Shown here piece after piece: positions 19,055-39,188 of a DNA stretch of 39,188 nt. The notes beneath the pieces are model-generated. The model was not told where the DNA came from. It was given only the letters and a program-made list of their open reading frames with translations, and did not search any database. Position numbers and translations under genes: made by a program. How positions within the stretch are numbered: position 1 is the first letter of the stretch; each line of letters starts with the position of its first letter. The stretch spans positions 1 to 39,188 of IMG/VR virus record IMGVR_UViG_3300011009_000006; one strand, given 5' to 3'. This DNA comes from a virus.

Positions 19055-19055
19055 A

Positions 19056-19114
19056 AAGTTTAACAAAAATTTAACATTTAGAATTTGCTTTGCTTTGCTA
19101 TTTTGGTTAAATTT
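19056..19114 (+). promoter_or_regulatory. Host-type promoter, class A
   Basis: AAGTTTAACA starts at 19056, the second TTTAACA follows 11 bases after the first, -33 TTTG is at 19084-19087, the spacer is 20 bases and the -7 is TAATTTG (19108-19114), one T shorter than the other copies. Drives the 19137 operon. Confidence 0.78.
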
Positions 19115-19136
19115 GCTCTATAATTAATTAATCACT

Positions 19137-25427: not shown

Positions 25428-26504
25428 ATGGAAAGAAAATTAGCTTCCTTGCAAATGATCAGCGACATCCAACCTATTGAAGGTGCTGACATGATTGAAT
25501 TAGCAATCGTAAACGGATGGAAGGTTGTGGTGGCAAAAGCAGTTGGACACAAGATAGGCAATATGGTTGTTTATTGTGAGATTGACTCTTTCTTACCAGT
25601 TCGTGAAGAATTTGAGTTCTTAAGAAAAAGTTCTTTTAAGAAAATGGGAACTGACGAAGGTTTCCGTTTAAAAACAATTCGCTTAAGAGGGCAGGTTTCA
25701 CAAGGTCTTATTTTACCAATGAGTATCTTTGGTGATTTTGGATGGACCGCGTATGAAGGTCTTGACGTAACCGAAAAATTAGGAATCGTTAAATACGAAC
25801 CGCCAATGCCTGCTCAACTTTCCGGAGTTGCTAAAGGATACTTCCCAAGCTTCTTAAGAAAGACTGATGAAGAAAGAATTCAAAATCTTGCAAAGGAATA
25901 TCCTGAGATGAAAACCCGTACATACTATGTGACAGAGAAACTTGACGGTTCTTCTGCAACATACTATATGAAAGACGGTGAATTTGGAGTGTGCTCTCGT
26001 AATCTTGAACTTGCTGAACCTGAAGCATTCGTTGAAGGTATGATAATGTGTGAGGATGGAATTGAAAGACCACGCCAGCAAAACACATTTTGGAAAGTTG
26101 CTCAAGAAATGAAAATCAAAGAGAAACTTGAAAAGGCATGTAAAGAATTAAAACGTAACTTGTCTATTCAAGGTGAACTTATTGGTGAAGGCATTCAAGG
26201 GAATCCTTATAAACTTAAAGGACAAACTTTAAGACTGTACAATATCTTTGATATTGACAGCCAAGAATACTTTGGATTACCAATGTTCTTAACTGCGGCT
26301 GAACACACATTGGATTTACCTGTAGTGCCTGTACTTGATACACACTTCCATTTGCCAGAGACTATTGACGAATTAATCAAATATGCAGATGGCAAATCTG
26401 TTCTGCATGATAAGACGGATCGTGAAGGTGTGGTTATCCGTACACTTGACCGTAAGTATTCTTTCAAAGCAATTAGTAACATCTTCCTTTTAGGAGAAAA
26501 ATAA
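25428..26504 (+). CDS. RNA ligase with N-terminal OB-fold (DraRnl/Rnl5 type)
   Basis: The 358-residue protein contains all nucleotidyltransferase ligase motifs: I KLDG at 171-174 (Lys171 forms the AMP adduct), Ia/III region SRN (190-192) and ELIGEG (250-255), IV EGVVIR (334-339), V SFKAIS (345-350). The first 120 residues (ISDIQPIEGADMIELA ... VVYCEIDSFLP) match the N-terminal OB-like domain of the Deinococcus DRB0094 RNA ligase family, which seals 3'-OH/5'-phosphate nicks in RNA, often on a DNA or RNA template. It leads its operon and has a class B host-type promoter. A second, unrelated-family RNA ligase lies at 35643. Confidence 0.92.
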   Translation: MERKLASLQMISDIQPIEGADMIELAIVNGWKVVVAKAVGHKIGNMVVYCEIDSFLPVREEFEFLRKSSFKKMGTDEGFRLKTIRLRGQVSQGLILPMSIFGDFGWTAYEGLDVTEKLGIVKYEPPMPAQLSGVAKGYFPSFLRKTDEERIQNLAKEYPEMKTRTYYVTEKLDGSSATYYMKDGEFGVCSRNLELAEPEAFVEGMIMCEDGIERPRQQNTFWKVAQEMKIKEKLEKACKELKRNLSIQGELIGEGIQGNPYKLKGQTLRLYNIFDIDSQEYFGLPMFLTAAEHTLDLPVVPVLDTHFHLPETIDELIKYADGKSVLHDKTDREGVVIRTLDRKYSFKAISNIFLLGEK

Positions 26505-26865: not shown

Positions 26866-27161
26866 AAGAACTATTAGAAATCTACGGAATAACGTTAACT
26901 GCAATATTTGCCTCTTTTGGAATTGAAGATGGTTATGGTGAATTAGATATTAAAGACAAGTGTATCTGGTCCAATGATAATGAAACTATTAGTTGGATAG
27001 AAGACTACGATCCTGATGAAGAAGTTTATTCAAATGAAATTATAGGAGAGCCAATTATCTGTGAACACGGGTATACAATGTTTTATGTTGATAACGGATG
27101 TGGTGACAAGTTCTATCAAATCTTTGCTAACAGATTATATGATGAAACTATAGGAGGTTAA
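26862..27161 (+). CDS. Hypothetical acidic protein
   Basis: A 99-residue acidic protein starting with an ATGA overlap with the upstream stop. Segments such as WIEDYDPDEEVYSNE and GYTMFYVDNGCGDKFYQI look like a small alpha/beta fold. Last gene of the RNA ligase operon. Its stop codon merges into the next class A promoter. No family recognised. Confidence 0.65.
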   Translation: MKELLEIYGITLTAIFASFGIEDGYGELDIKDKCIWSNDNETISWIEDYDPDEEVYSNEIIGEPIICEHGYTMFYVDNGCGDKFYQIFANRLYDETIGG

Positions 27162-27220
27162 AGTTTAACAAAAATTTAACATTCAGAATTTGCTTTGTGT
27201 TACTATTTTGGTTAATTTTG
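27161..27220 (+). promoter_or_regulatory. Host-type promoter, class A
   Basis: AAGTTTAACA at 27161, second TTTAACA 11 bases later, -33 TTTG 27189-27192, 20-base spacer, -7 TAATTTTG 27213-27220 (full match to TAnnTTTG), then CTCTATAATT as at 19115 and 35370. Overlaps the stop codon of the upstream gene. Confidence 0.82.
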
Positions 27221-27246
27221 CTCTATAATTAAAAACAACAATAATC

Positions 27247-27413: not shown

Positions 27414-27572
27414 ATGTACGAACATAAAGTAATTATCACAAAAGATCAAAGTATTATCAATGCTTATTTAACAGAAGGCTGGTTTGTAATTTCAGTAACA
27501 GCTCAACATGTGTCAGTTGCCGCAAATTCTTTACCAGCAGCTGGCGCATTTTGCTTTGTATTGAAAAAGTAA
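27414..27572 (+). CDS. Very small hypothetical protein
   Basis: A 52-residue ORF with ATG at 27414. The pattern INAYLTEGWFVISVTAQHV ... FCFVLKK (helix, then Gly-Trp, then strands) resembles short domains often found in phage and prophage genomes. Co-transcribed with the 27247 gene (17-base gap). Its stop codon overlaps the start of the next class A promoter block. Confidence 0.65.
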   Translation: MYEHKVIITKDQSIINAYLTEGWFVISVTAQHVSVAANSLPAAGAFCFVLKK

Positions 27573-27631
27573 AGTTTAACAAAAATTTAACATTTAGAAT
27601 TTGCTTTGCTTCTTCTATTTGGTTAATTTTA
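27572..27631 (+). promoter_or_regulatory. Host-type promoter, class A
   Basis: AAGTTTAACA at 27572, repeated TTTAACA at 11-base period, -33 TTTG 27600-27603, 20-base spacer, -7 TAATTTTA 27624-27631, followed by ACTATCAAT. Drives the 27663 operon. Confidence 0.78.
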
Positions 27632-27662
27632 ACTATCAATATTAATCAAACACATTTTAATT

Positions 27663-30539: not shown

Positions 30540-30923
30540 ATGGATAAACATTTATTTTTACTAAGAGGATTACCTGGAGCAGGAAAATCTACATTAGCTG
30601 CTTCGTTAGCAAAAACCCATCTTGAAGCAGATCAATTCTTTATGAAAGATGGCACATATAACTTTGACGCAACTAAACTAAAAGAAGCTCATGAATGGTG
30701 CCGAGCTAAATGCGAAAGCGCTATGTTATGGGAACTTAACATTACAGTGTCAAACACATTCACACAAGAATGGGAAATGAAAGCATACTATGAACTAGCA
30801 GAAAAGTATGGGTACACGGTATTTTCAATCATTGTTGAAAACAGACATGGCGGTGTTAATGAACACGGAGTTCCACAAGAAGCTTTGGATAGAATGAAAA
30901 ACCGTTTTGAAGTAAAACTATAA
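30540..30923 (+). CDS. P-loop polynucleotide-kinase-like enzyme
   Basis: A 127-residue P-loop kinase: Walker A GLPGAGKST (10-18), a probable catalytic Asp in EADQFF (30-35), then GTYNFDATKLKEAHEWC and a C-terminal NEHGVPQEALDRMKNRFE. This pattern is that of the small AAA_33/N4BP2-type kinases related to the 5'-OH polynucleotide kinase domain of T4 Pnkp. A 5'-kinase would make the 5'-phosphate that RNA ligases need. It lacks a phosphatase domain. First gene of a twelve-gene operon. Substrate could also be another small molecule. Confidence 0.8.
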   Translation: MDKHLFLLRGLPGAGKSTLAASLAKTHLEADQFFMKDGTYNFDATKLKEAHEWCRAKCESAMLWELNITVSNTFTQEWEMKAYYELAEKYGYTVFSIIVENRHGGVNEHGVPQEALDRMKNRFEVKL

Positions 30924-34375: not shown

Positions 34376-34587
34376 TGGACGGATTAGGAAATGCTTTAGG
34401 ACAAATGTTTGGTTGCTTAATAACAATAATCGTTGTACTTGCTATTGGGTTTATAGGAACTACTTGCTATTACTTTTTTAAAGGTGACTCAATAAAATCA
34501 GAGAAACCAATTAAGCCTCAAATAGAATTAGTGATTAAGAACAATAAAGTTGACACTCTTTACGTTTATCGAAAACCAATACGATAA
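34375..34587 (+). CDS. Small single-pass membrane protein
   Basis: A 70-residue protein with one hydrophobic segment (about 12-35, FGCLITIIVVLAIGFIGTTC) after a short Gly-rich start, then a basic C-terminal tail. Its start overlaps the upstream stop (TAATG). Function unknown. Confidence 0.68.
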   Translation: MDGLGNALGQMFGCLITIIVVLAIGFIGTTCYYFFKGDSIKSEKPIKPQIELVIKNNKVDTLYVYRKPIR

Positions 34588-34877: not shown

Positions 34878-35312
34878 ATGCCTGAACAAGTTAAAGAAAT
34901 TCCAGTTCTTAAAATTGGTGTGACCAATGGCAACGATAGAATCTATACTAAAGATGCAGCTAAAACAATTGTTCAATGCTATAAAGATAATAAGTCTAAA
35001 GACAGAGCTATGCTTGGTGAATTACAACATCCATCGTATGCAGATGGTAGATCTTTTGATACAGTTGATTTAAGTAAAGCATCTCATACCATTGATAAAG
35101 TTTACATCAAAGAAGATATTGTTTTTGCTGACGCAACTTTCTTACAAAACCAAAATGGCAAAACAGCACTAAGTATGCTAGAACATGGGTTTGCTGTAAT
35201 GCGCCCAAGATGCGTTGGAACTATTAATGAAAATCATGAAGTAGAGATTACTCAAGTAATTGCATTTGACATTATAGGCGCCGACGGTGATTCTTTTAAA
35301 GGTCTTATATAG
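34878..35312 (+). CDS. Prohead-protease-like domain protein, active site unclear
   Basis: A 144-residue protein whose layout matches the core of T4 gp21-type prohead proteases: NGNDRIYTKDAAKTIVQ (17-33), MLGELQHP (45-52) with the His, VDLSKASHTIDKVYI (63-77), ATFLQNQNGKTALSMLEHGF (86-105) and a beta end (IAFDIIGAD). In active proteases the segment after the Gly-Phe is VSSRG-like with the catalytic Ser; here it is AVMRPRCVG, so the Ser is missing and only Cys112 is nearby. It may be inactive, use Cys or have another role. It closes the thyA operon, far from head genes. Confidence 0.6.
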   Translation: MPEQVKEIPVLKIGVTNGNDRIYTKDAAKTIVQCYKDNKSKDRAMLGELQHPSYADGRSFDTVDLSKASHTIDKVYIKEDIVFADATFLQNQNGKTALSMLEHGFAVMRPRCVGTINENHEVEITQVIAFDIIGADGDSFKGLI

Positions 35313-35642: not shown

Positions 35643-36719
35643 ATGCTAATTGAAAAACTAAATAAATACATAGCGGAAGGCTGGGTAATGAAACAAGTTC
35701 ACCCAACACTTCCTCTTGCTATTTATAACTATACTCAAGCAACTCAATACGAATCACACTGGGACGAAATCACTTTAATATGTAGAGGCCTTATCTTAAC
35801 TGATGAAGGTGATATAATTGCTAAACCGTTTGGCAAGTTTTTTAATTATGAAGAACTTGCGCAAAAGAATATCATTCCTTGGTTTGAGTCTGAAAAAGTA
35901 ACTATCCAAGATAAGATGGACGGATCTTTAGGGATCTTGTTTAACTATGCTGGGAATTGGGTTATGGCAACTCGTGGATCTTTTACTTCTGACCAAGCAA
36001 TTAAAGGATTAGAAATTGTAAAAGAAAACTGCGACTTAAATAGGTTTGACATTAATCTTGTTTATGTGGGTGAAATCATTTACCCAGAAAACAGAATTGT
36101 GGTTGACTACGGGTTTAATGAAATATTCGTATTCTTAAGTATCTTTAATAAAGAGGAAGAACTTGAGTGGGAAGTTGCAAAGAAAGTTTTATATTCTCAC
36201 AACGTAGATAACAAATACATTGTAAAATCTGAAGTTCATAAACCAATAGGGCATTCATTATATGAATTACTTAAAGCTAAGAATACTGAAAATGAAGAAG
36301 GATATGTTTTAAGATTTTCTCCATCTAACTTTAGAACCAAAATTAAGTTTACAGATTATGTTGCTTTACACCGTATCTTGACTCAATGTTCTACATATGA
36401 TATCTATGAAAACCTGAAAACATTTGGGAAACTTCCAGAGGCTATGCTTGCTGACGTTCCTGATGAATTCTTTGACTGGGTTAAAGAAACTGAGTCTTCT
36501 ATCAGAAATGCATATGCTAAAATAGAAACCGAATATAAGTGGATCTTTAAAATTTTAATGCGAGCTGAAGGTATTGAAGATCGTGCTGTCTTTGCAGGTT
36601 TTGCAAAAAGATATAAATACTCCGGTATCTTATTCTGTATGTATTCTGACAAAGATTACTCAGATCATATTTGGAAACTGATTAAACCAGCTTACGGTAG
36701 ACCGTTTGCTAACAAATAA
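35643..36719 (+). CDS. RNA ligase, T4 Rnl1-like
   Basis: A 358-residue RNA ligase of the T4 RnlA type. Motifs: upstream CRGLIL (47-52) and AKPFGKFFNYEE (60-71), motif I QDKMDGS (89-95) with Lys91 as AMP acceptor, motif III TRGSF (110-114), VGEIIYPENRIVVDY (142-156), motif IV EEGYVLRF (218-225), motif V KIKFTDYVALH (233-243). The C-terminal 115 residues form a helical domain, as in Rnl1 where it recognises tRNA. T4 Rnl1 repairs tRNA cut by the host nuclease PrrC. The kinase at 30540 and 2H enzyme at 38078 could supply the end-healing steps. Confidence 0.92.
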   Translation: MLIEKLNKYIAEGWVMKQVHPTLPLAIYNYTQATQYESHWDEITLICRGLILTDEGDIIAKPFGKFFNYEELAQKNIIPWFESEKVTIQDKMDGSLGILFNYAGNWVMATRGSFTSDQAIKGLEIVKENCDLNRFDINLVYVGEIIYPENRIVVDYGFNEIFVFLSIFNKEEELEWEVAKKVLYSHNVDNKYIVKSEVHKPIGHSLYELLKAKNTENEEGYVLRFSPSNFRTKIKFTDYVALHRILTQCSTYDIYENLKTFGKLPEAMLADVPDEFFDWVKETESSIRNAYAKIETEYKWIFKILMRAEGIEDRAVFAGFAKRYKYSGILFCMYSDKDYSDHIWKLIKPAYGRPFANK

Positions 36720-38046: not shown

Positions 38047-38075
38047 ATAGTGTATATAAAATCTAAATACACTAT
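38047..38075 (+). promoter_or_regulatory. Inverted repeat overlapping late-type motif GTATATAAA
   Basis: Perfect 9-base inverted repeat ATAGTGTAT / ATACACTAT (38047-38055, 38067-38075) with an 11-base loop. It ends 2 bases before the ATG at 38078 and overlaps GTATATAAA (38052-38060), which starts 26 bases before that ATG. It could be an operator, a terminator remnant or an RNA hairpin that hides the ribosome site. No host-type promoter is present in this gap. Confidence 0.5.
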
Positions 38076-38077
38076 AT

Positions 38078-38623
38078 ATGTTAAATTACAACGAGTTTAC
38101 TAACAGTAGTAAGTTAGAAGAAAAAAGCAATACATATGATTTTGGCTGTTCAATGGTTTACTTTGACTGTCCTGAGTTACAAAAGATTCAAGAACAGATT
38201 AATCCAGATGACCTATACACTGAAGACGGCGACCAATATGGAATAGAAGATGATCACCATGTAACATTACTTTACGGATTACATTCTGAAGAAATTGAAG
38301 AAGCTGATGTTATGCGCATAAGTGCAGGTCAAATTCCAGCTATTCGTTTAGCAGGTGCTTCTGCGTTTGAAAGCGAAAACTATGACGTACTAAAATTTGA
38401 CGCGGAATGTCCTAAGTTGCATGAAATCAATAAAGCACTTAGTGAATTACCTCATACTACAAATTTCCCGGATTATCATCCACACGCAACAGTTGCATAT
38501 CTTAAGAAAGGCAAAGCAGCTGATTACATTAAACAATTAGAAGACGTATCTTTTGAAGTTACACCTTCTAAGATTGTATATTCAAAACCCGACGGTTCTA
38601 AAACAGAACAACCACTTAACTAA
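38078..38623 (+). CDS. 2H phosphoesterase (LigT/Acb1-like superfamily)
   Basis: A 181-residue protein with the two H-x-T motifs that define 2H phosphoesterases: HVT at 61-63 (in DDHHVTLLYGL) and HAT at 136-138 (in YHPHATVAYLKKG). Such enzymes cut or open 2',3'-cyclic phosphates, 2'-5' bonds or cyclic oligonucleotides; the phage anti-CBASS protein Acb1 belongs here. The N-terminus MLNYNEFTNSSKLEE resembles the T4 capsid-targeting peptide (MKTYQEFIAEA type). It is preceded by a late-type motif, not a host-type promoter. RNA end healing and degradation of CBASS signals are the two best hypotheses. Confidence 0.87.
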   Translation: MLNYNEFTNSSKLEEKSNTYDFGCSMVYFDCPELQKIQEQINPDDLYTEDGDQYGIEDDHHVTLLYGLHSEEIEEADVMRISAGQIPAIRLAGASAFESENYDVLKFDAECPKLHEINKALSELPHTTNFPDYHPHATVAYLKKGKAADYIKQLEDVSFEVTPSKIVYSKPDGSKTEQPLN

Positions 38624-38629
38624 ACAAAA

Positions 38630-38857
38630 ATGGCTACATTAACAAAAGGAAGAATTATCGACGAAGGCACTAAGTGGCAGTCCGTTGAGTTTAAAGGAAA
38701 GTGGGAAACACTTGAAGTGTTTCATGCTGACAAAGAAGGTGACGTAGAGATCACTATGACAAATGGTGTTGACATATTTCTTACCTACTTAAATCAAGAA
38801 GATCTTAAATTATTAAGTGATCATATCTTAAAGAATTTAAAGCCGGTAAAAGTTTAA
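38630..38857 (+). CDS. Small hypothetical protein
   Basis: A 75-residue protein with a beta-rich first part (GRIIDEGTKWQSVEFKGKW) and helical end (NQEDLKLLSDHILKNL). It follows the 2H enzyme by 6 bases and probably shares its transcript. Its last codons overlap the class A promoter block that starts at 38850. No family recognised. Confidence 0.65.
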   Translation: MATLTKGRIIDEGTKWQSVEFKGKWETLEVFHADKEGDVEITMTNGVDIFLTYLNQEDLKLLSDHILKNLKPVKV

Positions 38858-38909
38858 CAAAAATTTAACATTTAGAATTTGCATTGCTTCTTATTATTGG
38901 TTAATTTTA
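38850..38909 (+). promoter_or_regulatory. Host-type promoter, class A
   Basis: AAGTTTAACA at 38850, second TTTAACA at 11-base period, -33 TTTG 38878-38881, 20-base spacer, -7 TAATTTTA 38902-38909, then ACTATCAAT. A TAAAGGA site at 38923-38929 precedes the next start. Confidence 0.78.
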
Positions 38910-38932
38910 ACTATCAATAAAATAAAGGAAAT

Positions 38933-39139: not shown

Positions 39140-39188
39140 ATGAAAACATTTAATGAAATCATTGAAGGAGCTCCTCATATCATCAAAA
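39140..39188 (+). CDS. Truncated gene with capsid-targeting-like N-terminus
   Basis: ATG at 39140, open to the end of the window. The visible protein is MKTFNEIIEGAPHIIK. It resembles the T4 capsid-targeting peptide (MKTYQEFIAEA), and IIE followed by G fits the T4 prohead protease cleavage rule (hydrophobic-x-Glu, then a small residue). The rest of the gene is outside the window, so no function can be given. Confidence 0.6.
   Translation, partial: MKTFNEIIEGAPHIIK

Follow-up and report, generated by a model that had tools for sequence, protein, structure and literature searches.

A 2H phosphoesterase related to Acb1 bears a predicted T4-type capsid-targeting tag

The window analysed here is an entire virus record of 39,188 bases. 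Towards its 3′ end it harbours an ORF with two catalytic motifs, immediately preceded by a conserved element:

38050..38077, + strand: conserved 28-nt element, GTGTATATAAAATCTAAATACACTATAT, with the inverted repeat GTGTAT/ATACAC; identical in the closest relative
38078..38623, + strand: 2H phosphoesterase ORF of 181 aa with an ATG start, assigned from the ORF, Pfam, phrog_755 and the 2H fold
38258..38266, + strand: first catalytic HxT motif, H61-V62-T63 (HVT), with H61 and T63 invariant in alignment A1
38483..38491, + strand: second catalytic HxT motif, H136-A137-T138 (HAT), within NFPDYHPHATVAY, with H136 and T138 invariant

A 2H phosphoesterase of 181 residues had been proposed at this locus by an earlier, sequence-only reading, and the assignment is upheld by the ORF, by its two HxT motifs and by Pfam scores above cut-off (30.6 bits for Acb1, PF23474, and 30.8 bits for 2_5_RNA_ligase2, with cut-offs of 27 each). 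The His and Thr of both motifs are unchanged across the 29 sequences of alignment A1, and the second motif lines up with its counterpart in T4-type Acb1. An AlphaFold model of the protein, built with 28 relatives, displays a 2H fold at a mean pLDDT of 86.6, and its top solved match in Foldseek is 9q2g, a Burkholderia phage phosphodiesterase annotated as Acb1 in the PDB. Judged from sequence and modelled fold, the product is a 2H phosphoesterase related to the anti-CBASS enzyme Acb1.

Ahead of the enzyme domain lies a short N-terminal segment, which divides the ORF into two predicted parts:

38078..38122, + strand: predicted capsid-targeting propeptide, residues 1-15, MLNYNEFTNSSKLEE, with a predicted cut after Glu15; based on Y4/F7 and the [LI]xE rule, pLDDT, tagged relatives and clade-wise tag loss
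38123..38620, + strand: predicted mature injected 2H domain, residues 16-181; 10-residue-block mean pLDDT mostly >90 from residue 21

The segment contains Y4 and F7 followed by L13-E14-E15, and thereby follows the published rule for T4 capsid-targeting sequences (CTS), applied here as an aromatic at positions 4 and 7 with [LIV]xE ending at 10-20. In the CTS of T4 IPIII, targeting is determined by residues 4 and 7 and cutting by residues 8 and 10, and T4 propeptides are 10-19 residues long (PMC9026906). The ORF at 38078-38623 is the sole match to this rule among the 57 ORFs of the window, the null rate being 0.0006-0.0019 per internal segment, such that the previously claimed likeness to the targeting peptides of T4 internal proteins goes beyond chance by the position rule. 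Cleavage had been placed after Glu14 or Glu15; the [LI]xE motif, read as L13-E14-E15, retains Glu15 as the predicted site and not Glu14. Residues 1-16 form the only stretch of the model with pLDDT <50, which puts the tag outside the fold. T4 IPI, IPII and IPIII share with the window protein a short N-terminal propeptide, aromatics at 4/7 and an [LI]xE cut site, and the layout of IPI is particularly close, with F4/F7, a Thr/Ser-rich spacer and I-T-E in the T4 record. Unlike these internal proteins, the predicted window cargo is a phosphodiesterase, and no sequence kinship to them was seen beyond the tag. A strict profile of the canonical tags of the lineage (MKHIKTFExFINE) places the window protein at chance (P ~0.2), as compared with P ≤0.0014 for its relatives L004, L011, L013 and L018. 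As the strict profile does not recognize the window tag, the window protein alone constitutes moderate evidence, and its own tag appears atypical for its lineage.

Across the enzyme family the tag is far more regular. A first sample of 48 relatives, fetched with six search patterns of which one was N-terminal, contained [LI]xE in the extension of 16/16 independent N-terminal clusters, where 6.2 were expected from composition-preserving shuffles (approximate P 9e-8). Because of that single N-terminal pattern, sampling was repeated with catalytic-domain patterns only, and among the resulting 79 relatives, comprising 21 independent N-terminal types, 18 clusters possess [LI]xE whilst 6.4 were expected by the same shuffling (P = 6.5e-9; as the clusters have common ancestry, this value and that of the first sample are approximate). 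The three remaining clusters consist of two short MSDKQT-type starts with no tag and one VNE. Full T4-style tags occur in several relatives, namely MKHIKLFEEFVTE, MKAVKLFEEFILE, MKRIKLFEEFLNE and MIKSFTQFLTGIFE. A tree of the enzyme domain places the window protein among tagged proteins, with its nearest relatives all tagged, and gathers eight tagless copies into one strongly supported clade nested within the tagged ones. In this clade the tag has been lost and the enzyme is otherwise intact, as would be expected if the tag were a separable module. A search with the 2H protein of the relative G015 for closer homologues returned no match except itself. In one sample, an S77 protease was found in 9/9 tagged and 0/5 tagless records, an association confounded by the much shorter contigs of the latter. 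Tagless 2H relatives also occur in two phages with an S77 match (Molly and L118), which makes the tag a property of particular lineages.

Many family tags, for example MIKLIDLLKEEK, are short amphipathic segments that do not carry the two aromatics, and the N-terminal segment might on this basis be a helix that has nothing to do with capsids and instead binds a partner or plays a regulatory role, with [LI]xE as a by-product of an amphipathic helix with an acidic end. We consider this very improbable, given that [LI]xE exceeds composition-matched shuffles and that, in these genomes, the same style of tag is borne by gp23, the S77 protease, scaffold-type proteins and unrelated cargo. A different style, M..LxxLLxE, which has no aromatics, is displayed by the T4-like G004 and G005 (L080-L096), where it is common to gp23, the protease and scaffold-type proteins, and also to possible cargo that includes a kinase and HAD proteins; in G005, the 2H tag (RMQELAGIIVE) is similar to the one on a protein of 170 aa.

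As for the genomic neighbourhood, the window is extended at both ends in its closest relatives, G001 and G002, whose 2H protein is 93 % identical. When G001 (L074-L079) is reverse-complemented, ~15 genes with MKHIKTFExFINE-like starts are found in its first 30 kb, and the general CTS pattern occurs in 16 of the 123 ORFs of this genome, with 1.3 expected. Recognizable tagged cargo in G001 includes ferritin-like, PAP2 phosphatase and RNA 2′-phosphotransferase/ADP-ribosyltransferase-like proteins. Plain [LI]xE is not in excess close to N-termini across the proteome of the window or of G002, because the cargo genes sit on a part of the genome seen only in G001; the window 2H gene is itself far from the cargo cluster in its lineage. 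A second tag-like start is nevertheless present at the window's edge:

39140..39188, + strand: second CTS-like gene start, MKTFNEIIE/GAPH..., cut by the window end; complete in L071:13796-14332

In G002 this gene encodes an HD-type protein of 179 aa that weakly matches CCA tRNA nucleotidyltransferases in their HD part.

A clearer arrangement is seen in G015 (L173-L185), a 238 kb relative whose portal is 80 % identical to that of the window's lineage. Here, the 2H gene resides within a run of CTS-tagged genes and its tag is like those of its neighbours, with IKLFEEFIA common to the 2H tag and the start of the gene at 34436 (reverse complement). An S77 protein of 614 residues, encoded approximately 6 kb away, keeps both its GELDHP and its SSR motif intact and is followed by gp23 (132.7 bits), and the general CTS pattern is found in 37 of 308 ORFs as opposed to 7.6 expected. 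These CTS-pattern ORFs include LicD-type, PAP2 phosphatase and cytidylyltransferase-like proteins and one with an intein/Hint-splicing-domain match. In G010, the 2H gene adjoins both gp23 and S77. The intact S77 and the gp23 of G015, and the arrangement in G010, indicate that the window lineage very probably possesses the targeting and cutting machinery. The window does encode an S77 prohead-protease-like protein of 144 aa (34878-35312), but this was rejected as an active protease, since its catalytic Ser motif is altered from SSR to RPR; by its motifs it is a non-catalytic protease paralogue, and in the corresponding protein of G002 the His motif is changed too.

Several of these observations would fit a window tag that represents a relic or matches by chance, on an enzyme made in the cell and confined to the cytosol, with tagged relatives elsewhere being packaged: the tag is at chance by the strict profile, the gene lies outside the cargo cluster, the tagless clade shows that tags can be lost, and no intact S77 protease was seen on the contigs of the window phage and its near relatives. 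Against this, the tag retains its aromatics at positions 4 and 7 together with [LI]xE and lies outside the fold, the relatives nearest in the tree are all tagged, and the first 34 codons display 8 silent and 0 amino-acid changes as compared with the nearest relative, which is weak on its own. A relic or chance match is thus regarded as unlikely.

The reading we favour, and consider likely, is that the gene encodes head cargo, in which a T4-type CTS tag is joined to a 2H enzyme that would be cut after Glu15 and injected. What is observed is a disordered short N-terminal tag of T4 CTS layout attached to a complete 2H phosphodiesterase domain, a layout that recurs across the enzyme family in T4-type phages. 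A removable tag like those used for head loading in T4 suggests that the enzyme probably enters the cell ready-made, injected together with the phage DNA. During prohead assembly the tag would bind the scaffold core, after which the S77 prohead protease would cut the propeptide after Glu15, and the freed enzyme would remain in the head alongside the DNA, to enter the cell by injection at infection. There it would be active at once by metal-free, Acb1-style two-histidine 2′-OH transesterification. Head packaging is a strong inference, supported at the family level and probable for the window protein. The earlier proposal of a head-packaged 2H enzyme with a CTS propeptide therefore stands in part, sustained by the position rule, pLDDT, family-wide [LI]xE, the G015 setting and clade-wise tag loss; its promoter argument is not supported. 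Head packaging followed by injection is known for P1 DarB, which has an N-terminal targeting signal (PMC9024508), and for the ejection proteins of SPN3US (PMC5694885). Their signals and proteases differ from those of the window system, and SPN3US propeptides are mostly much longer.

As to what such an enzyme would act upon, the 181-aa protein belongs to phrog_755, its only PHROG match under E 0.01 and also the PHROG of T4 gp57B/Acb1, and the Acb1 Pfam model matches all 29 aligned proteins at E ≤0.01. The base-stacking aromatics of Acb1 are Y12, W74, F107 and W147, with E141 as a base contact (PMC9117128). The position of F107 corresponds to an invariant F130 in the window 2H family, that of W74 corresponds to F97 in the window protein when matched by eye, and no counterpart was matched for Y12 or for E141 and W147 of the C-terminal lid. 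Acb1 (PF23474, phrog_755) is thus like the window protein in PHROG, Pfam, HxT motifs, the F107 Phe and a common DY.PH.T...Y block; T4 gp57B differs in having no tag. LigT/ThpR and Usb1-type 2H phosphodiesterases possess the same fold, and we know of no capsid tag in either. Against the model of ORF 38078-38623, Acb1, LigT, Usb1 and archaeal homologues tie at a VIA Z of ~12, and with all 2H families tied the fold does not discriminate between substrates. Sequence and fold together do not separate Acb1 from RNA 2′,3′-phosphodiesterases (30.6 vs 30.8 bits; Z ~12), although, as distinct from LigT/ThpR, the window protein reaches just 26.8 bits with TIGR02258 (the RNA 2′,3′-cyclic phosphodiesterase ThpR/LigT equivalog), far below the cut-off of 65.7. 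The likeliest target, at around an even chance, would be a defence signal, for instance a cyclic oligonucleotide of the CBASS type, with 2′,3′-cyclic phosphate RNA ends, the main alternative, ranked slightly behind. One member of the family, L115 from a 635-kb phage, has a C-terminal fusion, apparently to a DEDD-type exonuclease domain.

An enzyme that is head-delivered for RNA healing would open 2′,3′-cyclic phosphates left by defence ribonucleases, with phage ligases and kinase resealing tRNAs, and we judge this a serious possibility, if clearly short of even. In keeping with it, genes for two RNA ligases lie in the window at 35643-36719 and 25428-26504, along with one (30540-30923) for a free-standing AAA_33 kinase that has no phosphatase domain, a CTS-tagged protein of G001 resembles RNA 2′-phosphotransferase, which performs the step after a 2H phosphodiesterase, and 2_5_RNA_ligase2 scores above its cut-off. 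A role of 2H enzymes in RNA healing has also been proposed for jumbo phages (PMC7824862). The TIGR02258 score and the sole PHROG match, shared with T4 Acb1, speak against it, however, and the ligase at 35643 falls in phrog_562, a family that also serves tail fibre attachment, and so need not imply RNA repair. Delivery at once would benefit either role, be it signal cutting or RNA healing.

Returning to head delivery of an Acb1-like enzyme, the phage enzymes shown to destroy defence signals have, to our knowledge, all been studied as proteins made after the onset of infection, by which time they may meet an alarm that is already sounding. A head-delivered 2H enzyme would act ahead of any phage gene expression. 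A search of the open-access literature, with incomplete coverage, turned up no description of head packaging for Acb1 or another 2H enzyme. More broadly, and at a little under even likelihood, many T4-type phages may pre-load an Acb1-like enzyme that destroys cyclic-oligonucleotide alarms from the start of infection, and this enzyme would then belong to a large kit of interchangeable, CTS-tagged enzymes for injection. Other candidates for such a kit in related phages are ADP-ribosyltransferase-like, phosphatase-like and nucleotidyltransferase proteins. Injected proteins of uncultured T4-type phages can be sought by means of the CTS tag, which amounts to a simple rule at the sequence level, and G015 by itself yields dozens of candidate cargo genes.

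The region upstream of the 2H gene does not bear out the late-type motif or promoter claimed for it, as TATATAAA, which lies there, precedes 3/26 structural or cargo genes versus 6/97 others and so is not clearly commoner before the former. A second motif, GATATATA, is somewhat enriched before structural and cargo genes (6/26 vs 4/97 others) and is absent upstream of the window 2H gene. The element at 38050-38077 is kept in the closest relative whilst its flank diverges, and thus probably holds something regulatory. Elsewhere in the window, intergenic repeats of ~70-90 bp are located at 19055-19127, 27159-27243, 27571-27659 and 38847-38919; these recur in G001 and G002, and possibly bear promoters.
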